64,000 nucleotides of DNA from Ornithodoros turicata (taxonomy: Eukaryota > Arthropoda > Arachnida > Ixodida > Argasidae). Where the stretch lies: assembly GCF_037126465.1 (NCBI RefSeq), contig NC_088207.1, positions 41,972,143 to 42,036,142 of the forward strand, written 5' to 3'. Every line of letters begins with the position of its first letter. Position 1 is the first letter of the stretch. The position numbers were made by a program, and so were the translations under genes. This document shows positions 4,785-61,186 of this stretch, in pieces. The notes beneath the pieces were generated by a model, which was not told the origin of the DNA, searched no databases, and saw nothing but the letters and a program-made list of their open reading frames with translations.

Positions 4785-5180
4785 GGGGGGGGGGGGGGGG
4801 TGATGGCAGGATAGGCTCGCCGTTGCTGGCCACACAGAAGTGGGCGTCGTCACGACTATAGCCAAAAAAAGAAAAGGAAAACGCATAGCAAAACAAAACA
4901 CAAAGGAAGGACGGACGGATGGAGGAGAGAGGAGGTTGAAGGATGGGGATGCGGTGAGGTGCACGAGTTCATCGGGGAGAGTAGAGTATTAGATGGGTCG
5001 ATCAGCAAGGCCTGTCTTCAGCAGGAAGAGAATGAGGTTTCTTGCTTTGGCGGAACGTTCGGCAGAAGAACCAGCGGGGTAGAGGATGTCTGCTAGCGAG
5101 CCCGAGGTGGAGCGAGGGAGATGTGTTTCGCGCGCAGAATGGTATGCTCGGCAGTCTCGCAGGATGTGTGCCAATCGCCG
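4785..5180 (-). mobile_element. I-type LINE, 3' end with UTR
   Basis: On the minus strand the frame ending at 4989 carries the last part of an I/R1-like LINE polyprotein: a 'HILRDCRAYHSARE' segment (the H-x4-C half of the C-terminal zinc knuckle), then 'SLADILYP' and 'LLKTGLADRP'. The upstream CxxC half is lost where a GCGGCGATTGG block is repeated (near 5160-5225). Downstream is the 3' UTR with TTTGGCTATAGTCGTGACG and GGCCAGCAACGGCGAGCC, then a 16-base C run (G16 at 4785-4800). The UTR recurs at 27354-27540. Badly 5'-truncated and dead. Confidence 0.7.
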
Positions 5181-5560
5181 CAGCCAGCCAAGATGCCAAC
5201 CAATCGCCGCAGACGGTTTTGAAACGCAGGCTCTCTGTGGCTGCCCATGCGGCTGGTGGCGGCTGGTCTCTATAGCTATGGCCGCTGAGAGGACGCTCGT
5301 GATTGGCTTTGTCTCTAGGTGGTGTTGACACGATGGGCGTGCAGAGCGGGTAGCTGACTCACGGTTGCTCGCTACGCTGCTCCTACCGTCATGTATCACG
5401 GCAGCATCAGAGCGTGCGGCGCCCCCAAGCTCCCTCTGCTTCGCACAGGGCTGAGTTTTGAGGTCGTTTCAAGGCAGTTTTCAAGGCCTATTCAACAGGA
5501 CAAATTGCCCTAACCCTTGAACGCACAGTGTGCCGGTGTGATGTGTTCCAATACCAGCAA
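5181..5560. other. No gene recognised
   Basis: Tail of overlapping frames from the LINE remnant. It contains the CGTGATTGGCT / CTAGGTGGTGTTG pair (5300-5325) shared with 2228-2330. Nothing else supportable. Confidence 0.35.
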
Positions 5561-19939: not shown

Positions 19940-21075
19940 AGTGATAAAAAGGTCTTAACGCCTGAACCGAGTAGTGAGCTGCTCATTTGCATACGCTCAT
20001 TAATTAGATAAACATCTTAACTTTTAACTTTTACTTCGCACGCTTACGGAACTTCTGTTTTACGCATCGTGACCTTCAGCGAAAAATATTGCACCGAAAA
20101 AAATTGCACCGTAAAAAAAAACGCGTCGAGGCTTAGTGATTTTTTCGAGGAATTTTTTTCGTTTTCGGTTTACATAGTTCTTGCGCGGAGCAGTGCACCA
20201 ATGCGCTCTTTGGATCAGCTACCCGGCTGTCAATTTCGTGTTCATTCGCCTGGTTGACACACGGGGTTGACGGAAGATTAGGAACAGCCGCAAGAGACGC
20301 TTTGATATTCCTTCTCAAAGCGACTGGTAAACAGCACTGCCGGTTCTATCGTTTTGTAGGTGAGATAGCATGCTGTTATCATGGATGATAACGAATGCGC
20401 CGCGAGCGCTGTGAGCTAGTCGGTACACTCTTAACAATTAACTACACCACATAGCACGCTCCTAGCCAACCATCATCCCGAATGACAACGGTCTCGCTCG
20501 ATTTGTTGAAGACGGGAGGCGAAGGCTTTCTTTTTGTCCTTATGTACGGCATCAGTGGCACAAAAAGAAAAAGAAAAAAAAAAGAAGAAGAACGGCGTAT
20601 GCCTCCCATACTTATCAAATCCACGGAGAGAACGTTGTCATCCGGCATGATGTTTGGCCAGGATAGTGCTATGTGGTGAAGTTCACTTTAAGCGTGTCGA
20701 GAGGGAGAGGGAACACCAAAGCGTCTCCTGCGGTATTGCGGCTGTTCTTATCTTCCGTTACCCCCATGTGTCAACCAGGCGGATGAACACGAAATTGACA
20801 GCCGGATAGCTGATCCAAAGAGCGCATTGGTGCACTGCTCCGCGCAAGAAATATGTAAACCGAAACCGATTAATTACTCGAAAAAATCACTAAGTGTCGA
20901 CGCGGGTTTTTTTTTTTTTTTTTGCAATATTTCTCGCCTAAGGTCACGATGCGTAAACCAGAAGTTCCATACACGTGCGAAGTAAAACTCCAAAGTTAAG
21001 ATGTTTATCTAATTATTGAGCGCATGCATATGAGCTGCTCACTACTCGGTTCATGGCCGATGTCCCAAGGATCTT
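19940..21075. mobile_element. Large foldback element T (about 365-bp arms)
   Basis: The left arm (to about 20317) and right arm (from about 20708) are inverted copies: TGAACCGAGTAGTGAGC, TTAGATAAACATCTTAAC, TTACGCATCGTGACCTT, GCGCGGAGCAGTGCACCAA, GGATCAGCTA and ACACGAAATTGACAG all recur in mirror order. Identity is perhaps 85-90%, so the arms have diverged. The loop holds MITE D3 (20426-20696). Outer boundaries are fuzzy. No transposase frame. Confidence 0.7.
20426..20696. repeat. Palindromic MITE, subfamily D, copy 3 (in loop of T)
   Basis: Left flank TA. Ends CACTCTTAACAATTAACTAC and GTTCACTTTAAGCGTG. Arms with CATCCCGAATGACAACG and GATTTGTTGAAGACGGGAGG. The inner right arm has been replaced or expanded by an A/G-rich run (20560-20595), so the stem no longer pairs at the centre. 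Confidence 0.78.
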
Positions 21076-22670: not shown

Positions 22671-22824
22671 CAGTCTAAAAACAGATGGTGGTGCTGGTCC
22701 CGAATGACATCGTTCTGCCTCGTAATTGGTTAAAAACGGGAGGCGTACGTTTTGTTGTTTAACATTTATGCAGTTAAAAAAGGCGTACGCCCCACGCTTT
22801 CTACAAATCGGGAGTGATAAAGCC
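22671..22824. repeat. Degenerate palindromic MITE of the same clan
   Basis: CAGTCTAAAAACAGATGG, CCCGAATGACATCGTTCT, AAAAACGGGAGGCGTACG and an inverted AAAGGCGTACGCC are recognisable, but both ends are eroded and the left TIR core is lost. Confidence 0.6.
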
Positions 22825-23311
22825 ACACTCCTAAAAATGAGTTTCACCACATAGCACGCTCCTACACTGTTAAAACAGAACTTCACCACATAGCACGCTC
22901 CTAGTCAACCATCATTCCGAATGATATCATTCTGTGCAATGATTTGTTGAAAATGAGAGGAGGCGCCTAGGCGGAGGGGACAGATTATCTTGTCCCAGAT
23001 TGGCGCCTCCCCCCTGTTTTGAACAAATCATGACACAGAATGATATCATTCGGTATGATGGTTGGTTAGGAGCGTGCTATGTGGTGAAGTTCTGTTTTAA
23101 CAGTGTAGCCAACCATATCATCCCGAACGACAACGTTCTCGCCCCTGATTTGTTGAAAACGGGAGGCGGAGCCTATTTTGTACCACTATGTACGTGTATA
23201 ATTGCTACAAAATAGTCCAGTTTTCAACAAATCAGGGGCGAGAACGTTGTCGTTCGGGATGATATGGTTTTCTAGGAGCGTGCTATGTGGTGAAACACAT
23301 TTTTAGGAGTG
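22825..23311. repeat. Palindromic MITE, subfamily D, copy 1, split by C2
   Basis: Begins CACTCCTAAAAATGAG and ends TTTTTAGGAGTG followed by TA. After GCACGCTCCTA it is broken by C2 (22865-23105) and resumes TAGCCAACCATATCATCCCG. Arms contain CGTTCTCGCCCCTGATTTG and GGAGGCGGAGCCTATTTTGT. Without the insert the length is about 244 bp. Confidence 0.87.
22865..23105. repeat. Palindromic MITE, subfamily C, copy 2 (inside D1)
   Basis: TA duplicated on both sides (22863-22864, 23106-23107). Ends CACTGTTAAAACAGAAC / GTTCTGTTTTAACAGTG identical to C1. Stem core differs a little on the left (GCGCCTAGGCGGAGGGGACA). Confidence 0.9.
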
Positions 23312-26335: not shown

Positions 26336-26744
26336 TATTTACGCCGTACGTCATTCACGTAAATTCGATGTAAGGCAAGAGCCTGTGTGCGTTTGATTCG
26401 CGGAAACGATGAAAACATGAGCTACGTGGACCGTATCGGCACAAAGAAACCTGATTGAAATACTTTGGGGTACGCGCTACACGCAGGATGTGGGAACATG
26501 TGGTTCTCATCCTGCTGCACATTTCCTGATGGCTGTTTGGGATGGGAAATGAAACTGAAAGCGCAACGGACGACATCCTAGAAGGACAACGTTAGTGGTA
26601 ATTTGCCTCTTGCTAAGAATTATCGTTTCCGCGTTTTTCTTGAACCCGTGGAATCATGATTTTCTTGATACGGACTTCTTCGCTTCACGGAGTTCGTCTT
26701 CTACAAGGAGCGTGACAAAATAGGTAAAAATTATTGGTCACCTA
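26336..26744. other. No recognised feature
   Basis: One 73-codon minus frame without family resemblance. Confidence 0.35.
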
Positions 26745-26993
26745 CACTCTTAGAAATGAACTTCACCGCATAGCACGCTCTTAGCCAACCATAATCTCGA
26801 ATGATATCGTTATCTGCCCTGATTTGTTGAAAACGGGAGGCGTACGCCTTTTTTGTGACACTTATGCTGTTTATAATTGTCACAAAAAAGGCGTACGCCT
26901 CCCGTTTTCAACAAATCAGGGCTGAAACCGATATCATTCGAGATTATGGTTGGCTAGGAGCGTGCTATGTGGTGAAGTTCATTTTTAAGAGTG
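26745..26993. repeat. Palindromic MITE, subfamily A, copy 4
   Basis: TA on both sides. Ends CACTCTTAGAAATGAAC and GTTCATTTTTAAGAGTG. Perfect GGCGTACGCC on both arms with a GTGACA...TGTCAC closing stem. Its outermost CACTCT reappears inverted at 27348-27353. Confidence 0.92.
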
Positions 26994-27082
26994 TACGCTA
27001 AGTAGCTGTATCTGATCATACACACTAAAAAGTGAACTTCACCACATAGCACGCTCTGCGCCAACCATGGCCACGAATGCTT

Positions 27083-27555
27083 CACTCTTAAAAACGAACT
27101 TCACCACATAGCACGCTCCCAGCTAACCATCATCCCGAATGACAACGTTCTCGCCCCCGATTTGTTGAAAACGAGAGGCGGAGCATATTTTGTGCCGTAC
27201 ATAATGGACATAAAGTAGGCTCCGCCTCTCGTTTTCAAGAAATCGGAGGCGAGAGCGTTGTCATTCGGGATGATGGTTGGCTAGGAGCGTGCTATGTGGT
27301 GAAGTTCATTTTTTAGTGTGTATGATCAGATACAGCTACTTAGCGTACACTCTAGTACACCTCTCACCCAGTGTGCTTCCGTCCCATCAGTACCGGTCAT
27401 CCTGCTTCTACATCACTTTGAAGTCCTCAACTCTCCTTTCTCCCACCTTCTTTTCATTTTTTTTGGCTATTGTCGTGACGATGCCCACTTGAGTGCGGCC
27501 AACAACGGCAAGCTACCTCGACACCCCCCCCCCCCCCCCCTCATTTTTTAGAGTG
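27083..27555. repeat. Subfamily D element (copy 2) with rearranged right side, inside B3
   Basis: A D-type foldback occupies 27083-27320 (CACTCTTAAAAACGAAC; CCCGAATGACAACGTTCTCG; GGAGGCGGAGCATATTTTGT). Its right end reads TTTTTTAGTGTG, the inverse of B3's own left end rather than of D2's left end. It continues outward into an inverted copy of B3's 23-bp left flank (27323-27345), TA and CACTCT. After a LINE UTR piece, the original-looking D end (TCATTTTTTAGAGTG, then TA) is found at 27541-27555. Confidence 0.72.
27354..27540 (+). mobile_element. I-type LINE 3' UTR fragment
   Basis: Matches the UTR of the minus-strand LINE at 4785-4980: TTTTTTTTGGCTATTGTCGT, GACGATGCCCACTTGAGTG, CGGCCAACAACGGCAAGC, ending in a C run (27524-27540). 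It fills the gap inside the rearranged D2 insertion. Confidence 0.68.
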
Positions 27556-27932
27556 TAGGGTTACCGCTACTGATTCGAGGAGAGAGGGAGGCGTACGCCT
27601 TTTTGTGTCAATTATCATTTATCCAAATTGACACAAAAAGGCGTACGCCTCCCTGTCTCCTCGAATCAGAAACGATAACCCTATCATTCGTAGCCATGGT
27701 TGGCGCAGAGCGTGCTATGCGGTGAAGTTCAGTTTTTAGAGTGTAGCGTGTTGGTTACGTGAAGGCCAGCAGCACCCAAACCGCCAGGTAAGTAGATGAT
27801 ATATAGCACAGGAACGTCTTTGCTCATTATAGGATACTGGTCAGATAAGGCAACTCGTCAAGTTTCGTAATCTAGATATTTCGCTTAGCATAATTGCAGG
27901 TTGTTAACGTTTTGTCCCGCGGAGTGAAACTA

Positions 27933-51773: not shown

Positions 51774-54686
51774 ATGTCATTACTCTCAGTTGATCATTTT
51801 TGTAATGTTATTCAATCTTGTGGTTTTGGTGCTGCGCATCTGAATATACGCAGTCTAAATAAACATTTTGACGACGTAAAAATGCTGCTCTCGTCATCTA
51901 ATGTAAATATACTTGCGTTATCCGAAACGGGATAACGCATTCTTTTTTTCTTAATAAACATATCCCCCCCCGAAACGTGGCTGAATGATCAGATTTCACA
52001 CTTTTTTGAAATTGATGGGTACTCGGCTGCTTTTTGCAACAGGTTAGGGCGAGATCATGGGGGTGTTTCACTATATATAAAAGATTGTTTATCGTTCAAA
52101 AGGCGCCCCGATTTAACCATTGATGTGCCCTTGTGCGAAAGCCTGTTTGTTGAGTTGCTTGACTTCCCTGGCGACGTTACATTTCCTTACAAAGGTTCTC
52201 CGCTTATCATTGGTGTGGTCTACAAATCACCATCTGTCAACACCATGATGTTTTTAAGAGAATTTGAAGTTGTTTTGCACTCACTATGGTCAAGGAAGTC
52301 GAATGTGTTAATTCTGGGTGATTTTAATATCGATTGCTTGAAACAAGACTCAATTACGAGTGCCTATACGGAACTGCATATGGGCTACGGTGTTAGTCAA
52401 CTGGTGAGGGTCCCAACTAGGTATGCAAATGATAACCCTCCTACCATTATCGATCATATTCTAACTAATGCTGATGAAAATAATATCACTTCTGGTGTAG
52501 TAGCAACGGGCATAACAGATCATGAGCTTATCTTCATATGCTACAAATCCAGCTGTCGTCAGCAAAATACTATGCGACAGAAGAGTATTATTGATTATGA
52601 TTTACTTGAGACAAAACTACAAAATATACAGTGGGAATTCCTTGATGATGAAGATTCAATTGATATCATGTTTGAAGGTTTTCTATCAAAAATAAGGACA
52701 GCGGTACAAACTGCGACGAGGACTGTCCATGCTAGCAAAAGGAGCACTATTAGAAAACCGTGGGTAACCAAAGCTCTTCTCAAAAGTATCAAGCACAAAA
52801 ATAATTTATATAAAAAGGTACGAATGAGACCTGATGATATCGAACTTAGAAATCGCTATTCATCTTACACATCTGTTCTTCAAAGAACAATCCGCCAAGC
52901 AAAAATGATGTTTTTTCAAAAACAAATTTCATCGGCGGCTGGAGATAGTAAAAAAATATGGGATACAATTAATTTGGCACTGAATCGAAGAACTTCTAAA
53001 AAAGAAATATCCTCCTTATGCGATTCCTCTGGGAACCTTATCACTGATAAGCGAGATATCGCCGAAATGTTTAACGAGCACTTTGTTAACAGTATTATCA
53101 GCTGTCAACATGATGGTCACGGGTTAGAATTGATGCTCCCTTGTCGTAATCCAAATTCTTTCTTCCTTGCTCCAGTTAACGCCATGGAATTAGAAAACAT
53201 AATTAAAAACCTAAAAGATACAAGATCTGCTGGAGATGATGGTATTCCGGTTTCTATTGTGAAAAGGTATAAACACCTACTCTCCAGTCCACTAACAAAG
53301 TTGATCAATCACATGTTTGCGGAAGGTGTGTTTCCTGGGCAGTTGAAAATTGCAAAGGTCACTCCTGTTTTTAAGAAGGGTGACAAGTTATTAGTTGACA
53401 ATTTTCGTCCAATATCGTTACTCTCAATTTTTAGTAAGATTGTTGAGAAAACCATTCTAACCAGGCTTCAAGAATTCTTTATGCGAGAAAATTTGCTCTC
53501 GATTTCACAGTATGGCTTCACAAAAAAGAAGTCTACAGAAATTGCTTTGGTGGATATAGTTGAATACCTGAAACAAAACATTGATAACAAAATTCTAACC
53601 CTGGGTATCTTCATCGATCTAACAAAAGCATTCGACCTAATTGATCATACAATTTTATTAAAGAAGCTTGAGTGCTATGGAATTCGTGGTCCTCCGCTCG
53701 ACTTTTTGCGAAATTATTTAACGGGTAGAAAACAGTATGTCATAATTGATAATGATTACTCATCTTCAAAAAATGTTACGTGTGGCGTACCACAAGGCTC
53801 TATTCTGGGCCCATTCTTGTTCCTAGTGTATGTCAACGATCTCGTTGAGGTACTTTCAACCACTACCATATTATATGCGGACGACACAAACATATTTGTT
53901 GATGGCATGTCAATAAATGAAATTTTTGAAAAGGCAAACCTAGTTCTTAACAGGCTTTCCCTATGGATGGCGACAAATAAGCTGAAAGTTAATTTAAAAA
54001 AGTCGTGTTATATGGTCTTTCACCCCAGGCAGAGGAGGATTGCTCATCAAAATCTTGACATTTGGTACTGTGGCACTCGGCTACAAGCAGTAGATACAGT
54101 AAAATTCTTAGGGTTATATCTAGACCCGTGTTTAACATTTCAACCTCATATAAATTTCGTTCGAAAAAAAATCTCACAAGGGTTGTTTGCGTTGTCCCGC
54201 CTAAAATATTTAGTTCCTATCAGTGTATCGTTAAATGTTTATTTCGCTCTTATCCATAGTCATATCTCTTATTGTATCGAAGCATATGGTATTACATACA
54301 AATCAAATCTTACGCCGCTGTATCTGCTTCAGAAAAAAGCTTTGAGAATTATAATGGGTCTTTCACCATTTGACTCAATTACCTTCGCCTTTCAATTTCT
54401 TAATGTTAAAGATGTTTTCTCATTAGTCGAGTACAAGTGTCTTCTCTTGATGTATAAACTTCTTCATAACATGGTTAAATCCTCATTAATCTCTATTAGT
54501 TATTGCACAGGCCCATATACGTTAAGGAATAACGATTATTGTATTCAACTTCCTCGTCCACGTTCTAATTATGGTTTACATTCATTTAGATATTTCGCAG
54601 GCAAAAATTGGAATGAACTTGCATCTGAGGTTAAAAAAGCGACTAGCCTTCATATTTTTAGAAATATGCTCTCAAGCAAGATGTGA
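51774..54686 (+). pseudogene. LINE ORF2: APE endonuclease and reverse transcriptase
   Basis: The frame starts at ATG 51774 and is open through 'HLNIRSLNKHFDDVK' and 'NILALSET'. It is broken by a 42-bp insertion (51930-51971) that contributes a stop, then resumes in the same frame at 'TWLNDQIS' and is open to 54686. Endonuclease motifs: SETWL (split by the insert), 'VVYKSP', 'LILGDFNID' and 'ITDHELI'. RT motifs: 'PVFKKGDKLLVDNFRPISLL', 'GFTKKKST', 'IDLTKAFDLIDH', 'GVPQGSILGPFLF' and the catalytic 'YADDTNIF', then a thumb ('VKFLGLYLD'). There is no RNase H or end knuckle. Apart from the patch the frame is intact, so the copy is young. It makes the enzyme for target-primed reverse transcription only if the patch is ignored. 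Confidence 0.85.
51930..51971 (+). other. 42-bp templated insertion inside ORF2
   Basis: Bounded by GAAACG on both sides (51924-51929 and 51972-51977). It starts GGATAACGC, the exact inverse of the adjacent target GCGTTATCC (51915-51923). It then continues with SINE-body sequence (TTTTTTTCTTAATAAACATA, C run). It adds 48 bp with the duplication, keeping phase but creating a TAA. Confidence 0.85.
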
Positions 54687-59134: not shown

Positions 59135-60160
59135 TAACAGGTGAGTTTGTAGATGCGCATTCAATTGTGCAGTGACTTGGGCAGCTGCGGGCTTAACCTT
59201 TCTGGATACAATCGTGTCAGGACTTAAACATGTCTTTCTGACAGCTTTCTCTTGCCACGGCACGTGCTCCTGGATTGGATTGGATTGGAAAAGAAAGAAA
59301 AATATGGAGAGGTTAGTCCAGAACCAGTCAGAACTGGCTGCTCCAAAACGCGTTTGTGGGTGAAAAAATAGAGCCTACTGTGTGGTTTTTGGCCCGCTCT
59401 GTGGTGTGCCGATTCCGTATATCCCACGACCCTGGGTACGCTCCAAACAGGTGCTGCTTGGTCACGGTCGCACCGTGAAGACGCGTTTCAACAATATATC
59501 GCCTTTTAAACTTTAAATCGACTCCCATTATGCCGTGCGGACTGTACCACATAACATACAGCCCTACATACTGCTCGTCTAATTCGAGGTCACATTCTGC
59601 CCTTCCTTATCAAATGCCAGCCAGGAAAAGTTTTGAAAAAGCCAGCAGGTAGCGCGCACATCGACCTTCAACCAGGGTGGCCAGGCAAAATACCGAAAAG
59701 TCGCCAACGGGCCCTGAAAAAGCCAAAAGTAGCCAATTTCCCGTGTATGTAGCCATTAGACGACTTCAGAAAATCCCTATGGGAACTATGGGAACTTGCT
59801 GGTGACAGAGCAGGAGAAGGTGTTTAGGTTTCTGCTTTTTCGGCCGATTGTCCACGAGGAGTCAAGGTCAGCGAAAGCGAAATGTGAAGGACAGTTCTCT
59901 CTTCCTCATTCCAGTAATCTCCCAGGATGCAAGGCGTGCGCAAGGAGCACTGGGATTTTCTGAAATTGTCTATTGCGTAGCCAGCGTTGTATAACAACAA
60001 CAAACAAACAAAATTACCAGGGTCGTGTCGACACGATTCACGTTCCACGCGAAACCTGACCAGAGAACGAAACATAACCAGCCGAGCGACCAGTGCCTAA
60101 CCAAAAATAAGGGTTGTGATAAATCGTATAGTGACAAGTCATGAGGGAACTATATGACCA
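59135..60160 (+). repeat. 1026-bp direct tandem duplication, copy 1
   Basis: The whole unit recurs immediately at 60161-61186. All frames, the GATTGGATTGGATTGG word and MITE G are the same in both. The only difference I saw is C at 60158 versus T at 61184. No gene lies inside it; the repeated 60-83 codon frames show no domain. Confidence 0.92.
59757..59972. repeat. MITE family G, copy 3
   Basis: TAGACGACTTCAGAAAATCC ... GGGATTTTCTGAAATTGTCTA, with core GTCAAGGTCAGCGAAAGCGA and AATCTCCCAGGATGCAA. Part of the duplicated unit. Confidence 0.72.
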
Positions 60161-61186
60161 TAACAGGTGAGTTTGTAGATGCGCATTCAATTGTGCAGTG
60201 ACTTGGGCAGCTGCGGGCTTAACCTTTCTGGATACAATCGTGTCAGGACTTAAACATGTCTTTCTGACAGCTTTCTCTTGCCACGGCACGTGCTCCTGGA
60301 TTGGATTGGATTGGAAAAGAAAGAAAAATATGGAGAGGTTAGTCCAGAACCAGTCAGAACTGGCTGCTCCAAAACGCGTTTGTGGGTGAAAAAATAGAGC
60401 CTACTGTGTGGTTTTTGGCCCGCTCTGTGGTGTGCCGATTCCGTATATCCCACGACCCTGGGTACGCTCCAAACAGGTGCTGCTTGGTCACGGTCGCACC
60501 GTGAAGACGCGTTTCAACAATATATCGCCTTTTAAACTTTAAATCGACTCCCATTATGCCGTGCGGACTGTACCACATAACATACAGCCCTACATACTGC
60601 TCGTCTAATTCGAGGTCACATTCTGCCCTTCCTTATCAAATGCCAGCCAGGAAAAGTTTTGAAAAAGCCAGCAGGTAGCGCGCACATCGACCTTCAACCA
60701 GGGTGGCCAGGCAAAATACCGAAAAGTCGCCAACGGGCCCTGAAAAAGCCAAAAGTAGCCAATTTCCCGTGTATGTAGCCATTAGACGACTTCAGAAAAT
60801 CCCTATGGGAACTATGGGAACTTGCTGGTGACAGAGCAGGAGAAGGTGTTTAGGTTTCTGCTTTTTCGGCCGATTGTCCACGAGGAGTCAAGGTCAGCGA
60901 AAGCGAAATGTGAAGGACAGTTCTCTCTTCCTCATTCCAGTAATCTCCCAGGATGCAAGGCGTGCGCAAGGAGCACTGGGATTTTCTGAAATTGTCTATT
61001 GCGTAGCCAGCGTTGTATAACAACAACAAACAAACAAAATTACCAGGGTCGTGTCGACACGATTCACGTTCCACGCGAAACCTGACCAGAGAACGAAACA
61101 TAACCAGCCGAGCGACCAGTGCCTAACCAAAAATAAGGGTTGTGATAAATCGTATAGTGACAAGTCATGAGGGAACTATATGATCA
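60161..61186 (+). repeat. 1026-bp direct tandem duplication, copy 2
   Basis: Second copy, joined to the first without spacer. The outer flanks and the junction all share TAA (GTAACAGG left, CATAAGCG right, CATAACAGG junction), so joining used about 3 bp of microhomology. Confidence 0.92.
60783..60998. repeat. MITE family G, copy 4
   Basis: Identical to copy 3; it arose by the tandem duplication and not by transposition. Confidence 0.72.

Follow-up and report, generated by a model that had tools for sequence, protein, structure and literature searches.

TRAS1 is placed in the R1 clade of LINEs, and Tx1L sits in Tx1D. For R1, excerpts of one study (PMC2718515) describe target duplications of ~14 bp whose end varies, and a 5' junction with either extra bases or 1-5 bp of microhomology; for R2 they propose that second-strand synthesis begins after a few nucleotides of the cDNA have paired with the cleaved top strand, and that extra bases arise when this pairing fails. 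The abstract of another paper (PMC6895275) calls the later half of LINE integration very poorly understood. Transposons figure among the LINE targets listed in part of a third (PMC4640811), and an excerpt of a fourth (PMC8869645) cites the Tx1L endonuclease paper; our own literature search, thin on subscription papers, found none by title or abstract on a LINE targeting MITE ends or other transposons, and we make no claim to a first report. In yeast, according to part of a further study (PMC11724301), an imperfect 10-bp inverted repeat close to a broken end primes fold-back insertions, and inserts measure 10 to over 150 bp. Among the polymerase theta products covered in an excerpt of PMC5068794, snap-back synthesis has a small share.

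The locus that we compare with these systems lies in a 64,000-nt stretch of DNA, the whole of which we call the window (C7:41972143-42036142 in a 1.07-Gb assembly of 379 contigs). It consists of a MITE (B3) split by a second, D-type MITE, whose right tip in turn carries the 3' end of a LINE together with an inverted copy of the DNA that separates B3 from a neighbouring MITE (A4). Its features, in window positions, are these:

26745-26993, no strand: MITE A4, A-type, a near-perfect palindrome, with TA at 26743-26744 and 26994-26995
26988-26993, plus strand: right tip of A4, AGAGTG (reversed, CACTCT), the 6-bp microhomology with the LINE
26996-27018, plus strand: F, the 23-bp spacer from A4 to B3, as the native copy of the flank
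26994-27024, plus strand: template for the extra bases, made up of TA, F, TA and B3 bases 1-4, and matching the reversed 27317-27347 at 31/31 positions
27021-27080, plus strand: left part of MITE B3, with its private CACACT tip
27083-27316, plus strand: D-type MITE as far as the LINE insertion point
27306-27316, plus strand: left copy of the target-site duplication TCATTTTTTAG, an 11-mer found twice within the window
27317-27347, minus strand: extra bases at the LINE's 5' junction (inverted B3 tip end, TA, F, TA)
27348-27540, plus strand: LINE 3' end, 5'-truncated, from CACTCTAG to the C-run, sense on the plus strand
27541-27551, plus strand: right copy of the target-site duplication TCATTTTTTAG
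27552-27555, plus strand: the final 4 bases of D, AGTG, then TA at 27556-27557
27558-27743, plus strand: right part of MITE B3, then TA at 27744-27745

The A, B and D elements show the terminal inverted repeats and TA duplication of TA-MITEs; the arms of A4 measure 123 nt and are 94% complementary, and the left TA of D reads TT in the window. D-type elements are nested in B-type ones elsewhere too (L012, L013 and the 3' flanks of L010 and L061), apparently near the same TA as in B3, which may be an insertion hot spot. At window positions 22826-23311 a D-type MITE itself holds a nested C-type MITE, with a truncated element alongside (~22682-22825), and the window also contains a 300-bp direct repeat, 100% identical and 1026 bp apart (59135-59434 and 60161-60460). 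The MITE tip pattern had 0 matches in the public collections viral_contigs and genome_contigs.

A preliminary description of this DNA had proposed that B3's flank recurs inverted within the composite, and alignment of the two regions bears this out: they share an exact 44-bp inverted repeat (26988-27031 and 27310-27353) and, past one mismatch (27032 G versus 27309 T), the match continues to 27056/27285 via the shared MITE tip. Among pairs within 3 kb of each other in the window, this is one of two exact inverted pairs of at least 40 bp outside the listed MITE bodies. The second belongs to a foldback element (19960-21057) whose arms of ~350 bp are in part exact over 44 bp and whose loop contains a D-type MITE (20424-20697). 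The right end of D was said to mirror the left end of B3 rather than its own, and it does, since the AGTGTG variant at the aligned end position is private to these two among the 27 MITE tips compared. Position 27309 carries D's base where the mirrored B3 tip differs and 27317 carries B3's, private letters that place the change from D to B3 within 27310-27316; because B3-type and D-type sequence are the same across that interval, the right-hand limit of the left duplication is tied to the point of the switch. The perfect match of the extra bases to their template compares with a best score of 8 in the LINE or in the locus read in direct orientation, and it supports the early proposal of a switch between homologous palindromic tips with copying outward through B3's flank to the tip of A4.

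In a genome search, the F sequence was found at two places, native F and its inverted copy, both at this locus (a third match covered query bases 28-63 only, that is, the B3 tip part); as the search skips very common words, absence from it is no proof of rarity. That these are the sole two places found agrees with a single event, as had been suggested, rather than a mobile unit. The inverted segment is entered by ~30 nt of tip homology and left by the 6-bp microhomology CACTCT, and it has the marks of template switching or fold-back: a reverse-complement copy of nearby DNA from inverted homology, with microhomology at the return. The hexamer at the start of the LINE is both the next six bases of the template (the A4 tip) and the LINE's own sequence, which at that point reads ACCACTCTAG in the seven other aligned copies. 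Of the preliminary view that 27348-27353 are the last six bases of A4, the identity of the letters stands; the same letters are, however, the LINE's own in 7/7 other aligned copies, so we take them for 6-bp microhomology rather than a clear piece of A4.

The inserted piece is indeed LINE sequence, as had been recognised and as genome copies and the domains of a longer copy (L061) confirm, and the alignment of genome copies sets its extent at 27348-27540. A query of 26986-27743 was matched over its full length at one place, the window; about 15 others matched from where D begins to roughly the TA behind the LINE, with 78-89% identity. The seven best of these others, aligned with the window, share one layout: a MITE leads through a junction whose length varies into the same LINE 3' end, which spans CACTCTAG to the C-run and is followed by a MITE tip of the form TCATTTYTAAGAGTG. 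Longer copies have a common, continuing sequence upstream of CACTCTAG. Across 27354-27518, identity to other genome copies reaches 99%. L061 is a 3.7-kb copy with a 15-bp duplication, TCATTTTTAAGAGTG on both flanks, and with an endonuclease ORF separate from the reverse transcriptase/RNase H ORF (domains Exo_endo_phos_2, RVT_1 and RNase_H). Against PDB, the sole match of its endonuclease ORF at E 0.001 was TRAS1 (E 2.8e-07), and the best matches of the reverse transcriptase ORF were R2 and L1. A constant 3' end, variable 5' truncation, a target-site duplication and endonuclease plus reverse transcriptase in longer copies identify a LINE of the type that integrates by target-primed reverse transcription (TPRT). 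A narrower delimitation of the LINE, to 27465-27540 with a 9-bp duplication TCATTTTTT at 27454 and 27541, was overturned by the alignment of genome copies, and so was the reading of 27354-27452 as unrelated filler, all of 27348-27540 being LINE; CTTTTCC followed by a T-run (in the window, CTTTTCA) is internal to it. A related LINE 3' end lies on the minus strand at window positions 4785-4881 (86% over 93 bp), where the C-run is followed by no MITE tip recognisable by eye; nearby, the C-terminus of ORF 4989-5399 (minus strand) resembles the L061 LINE by eye, and another reverse transcriptase ORF occupies 52125-54686.

To counter the MITE bias of that selection we used a query of LINE sequence only (27354-27518), which gave 1364 candidates, of which 40 were scored and 30 read; 10/40 scored matches were absent from the loci read, L019 among them being read in another set. 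A tip was called where the sequence immediately behind the C-run differed from one of three tip types by no more than 4 mismatches. It was present in 21 of the 30 matches read from the 40 scored of 1364, the window included, compared with a background of 338 of ~128000 window positions on both strands (0.26%) in a window that is MITE-rich. In a larger set of 54 rows, drawn from mixed, biased queries and in part redundant, two or more rows being repeats (L011 is the same copy as L061, and L066 appears in two rows), one tip type at 4 or fewer mismatches followed the C-run in 39/54 rows, or 38/52 copies. The nine of 30 without a called tip make the LINE's targeting a preference: L034, to judge from its left flank and an 11-bp duplication after MITE-like GTGAAGT, seems to sit in a tip of MITE type too, L049 differs from a tip by 5 mismatches, the flanks of L044 and L047 look MITE-like by eye away from the usual point, and no tip was recognised at L042, L043, L051, L052 and L054. 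The LINE family is thus mostly located in the tips of TA-MITEs, and this preference rests on many loci. In the tip insertions read the LINE is directed outward, its C-run adjoining the tip's TCATTTTT. D-type copies that lack the LINE have a single tip in all five shown, and the window's flanks, joined across one copy of the duplication, take the same form. One locus (L059, G000:C7:36589000-36597500) holds two LINE 3' parts head to head, an inverted G-run piece adjoining the left MITE tip (CACGCTTAAAAATGA) and a sense copy adjoining the right tip, which might reflect hits on the two tips of a single MITE, or else a 5' inversion.

Duplication length was taken as that of an exact prefix, and a row counted when this reached 6 bp, extra bases numbered no more than 35 and the flank differed from the tip at 5 positions or fewer; shorter or mismatched duplications were left out. 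By this measure 20/54 rows have duplications of 6-18 bp, the rest being too short upstream, rearranged or below the cut-off; nine of the 20 have no extra bases at the 5' junction and 11 have 1-31, the 31 of the window, beside its 11-bp duplication, being the longest. Tip variants match on both sides of an insertion (TCATTTCT occurs twice in L004 and L019, TCATTTTT twice in L003 and L007), and both the 5' truncation points and the tip variants vary between LINE copies. A local inverted copy as the source of the extra bases was found in the window only and in 0/9 other rows with at least 5 extra bases, four of which are too short to tell (5-7 bases) and one of which (L030) is mostly LINE sequence. 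Next longest among the 20 rows are the 29 extra bases of L016, which is truncated exactly at CACTCTAG, and the 27 of L058, in each case behind a complete MITE tip; in the assembly, a second source was found neither for the former (1 match, itself) nor for the latter (besides itself, a match of query bases 1-31, 25 of them tip). With no local inverted copy in the other rows and no source for these two, fold-back capture rests on one locus. At L004 and L053, CTATCTGGACGGGAC directly follows the left duplication and may represent the 5' start of the LINE, retained through an internal jump.

Given the MITE-tip context, the varied 5' truncations and the duplications, the simplest reading is that the LINE inserted into the tip of D, not that a gap in D was patched. 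We consider it probable that TPRT into D's right tip was followed by fold-back of the 5' junction onto the tip of B3, with the cDNA annealing at CACTCT. A LINE that strongly prefers TA-MITE tips and encodes an APE-type endonuclease would have entered the right tip of D, nested in B3, by TPRT, with a bottom-strand nick expected at CACTCTTAAAAATGA^CTTCACC and a top-strand nick about 6-18 bp away. The 11-bp tip sequence was duplicated and, as comparison with other copies shows, the LINE is 5'-truncated at CACTCT. Instead of priming directly on the LINE cDNA, the nicked 3' end of the top strand (...GTGGTGAAGTTCATTTTTTAG) would have folded back onto B3's homologous left tip, ~290 bases upstream, and been extended outward from the B3 end through the 23-bp flank into the A4 tip as far as CACTCT, where the extended end may have annealed to the LINE cDNA by six bases and primed the second strand. 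The opposite direction would leave the same letters, a cDNA end (...AGAGTG) moving to the A4 tip, rightward into B3's tip and then pairing with the tip of D. The 3'-terminal base of D stays paired on B3's tip and on none of the other three tips tested. Predicted pairing of the D 3' end is -47.0 kcal/mol with B3's left tip, nearly as strong with the left tip of A4 (-45.8 kcal/mol, last bases unpaired) and -42.2 kcal/mol with the left tip of D itself, where mismatches lie close to the end. Fold-back would explain why the LINE is truncated where it is, as well as the duplication and the extra bases. Whereas insertion and duplication are plain from the alignments, the timing and direction of the fold-back are our inference, and had the template switched between tip and LINE at a later time, independently of the insertion, the letters would be the same.

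Such a sequence of two steps, in which a longer LINE first entered D's tip and a later switch ran from the D tip to the B3 tip, F and A4's CACTCT and back to the LINE, deleting the LINE bases in between, is an explanation that we regard as possible but rather unlikely. It would fit a four-point template-switch model, as set out in part of PMC7954356, the A4 and D hairpins are strong (-134.9 and -116.7 kcal/mol with DNA parameters), and 6 bp of microhomology mark the return point; yet it requires two rare events at one junction, whereas extra bases at the 5' junction are frequent for this LINE (11/20 rows). We see far less reason to follow the preliminary description in having a gap in D repaired by synthesis that switched to B3's tip and was closed with LINE-derived filler. 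The letters at the switch are the same under that account, but it predicts neither the 11-bp duplication, a direct repeat on which the preliminary description had not remarked, nor the recurrence of the same C-run end beside a MITE tip in 21/30 copies read. Gap repair is not supported, nor is LINE DNA as filler that completes a repair: in the alignments the LINE is a site-preferring insertion that duplicated its target, built like many other copies, and the copied flank lies at its 5' junction. Fold-back chimeras are a known artefact at palindromes, and fold-back priming during library construction or assembly might be suspected here; a normal LINE insertion with its duplication and correct continuation on both sides, which a simple fold-back read would lack, makes this very improbable. 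Scarcely credible is a transposase-moved unit of MITE, captured LINE and F, for although composites of MITE and LINE are frequent, and many retain TA on either outer side, the copies are truncated at different points and bear different tip variants, and F was found just twice in the genome, both times at this locus. Many copies of the composite were originally to count as a sign of an ordinary transposable unit, and on this the outcome is divided, MITE plus LINE being common and MITE plus inverted flank plus LINE being found once.

Returning to fold-back of the top strand during LINE insertion, the junction is readable because template, primer and exit each carry private marks, and it fits a model in which the nicked 3' end of the top strand serves as primer. 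This suggests that a nearby homologous transposon tip can divert the top-strand primer. As MITE tips are abundant and palindromic, tip-to-tip annealing might even be an alternative route of second-strand priming in a LINE lineage that has settled in the terminal inverted repeats of a MITE superfamily, a route that carries host DNA between neighbouring MITEs and lengthens inverted arms. We offer this generalisation as speculative and on balance doubtful; if true, such lengthening would be a way in which foldback elements grow. With its many copies (1364 first-look candidates, 40 scored), the MITE-tip LINE potentially provides a large collection of marked 5' junctions from one genome.

Compared with R1-type LINEs (Drosophila R1, TRAS1), the element shares an APE-type endonuclease, a multicopy-repeat target, a constant 3' junction and 5' truncations, but its target is a MITE tip rather than rDNA or telomere repeats, its duplications measure 6-18 bp and it has an RNase H domain. 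Its likeness to the R1 clade lies in the preferred insertion sequence and the TRAS1-matching APE endonuclease. With Tx1L of Xenopus it has in common that a LINE targets another transposon, a likeness in the kind of target only, the target itself being different. Yeast foldback insertions at double-strand breaks, as part of PMC11724301 describes them, likewise have a 3' end that folds on a nearby inverted repeat, extends and joins the other side, although here the break is most simply an intermediate of retrotransposon insertion and the other side LINE cDNA. Short-range template-switch mutations, in the excerpted account of PMC7954356, also place a reverse-complement copy of nearby sequence between two switch points, while in our case ~30 nt of transposon-tip homology open the switch and the strand comes back to an element that has just inserted. 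Both the preference for tips and the junction formed by fold-back are variants of kinds already known.
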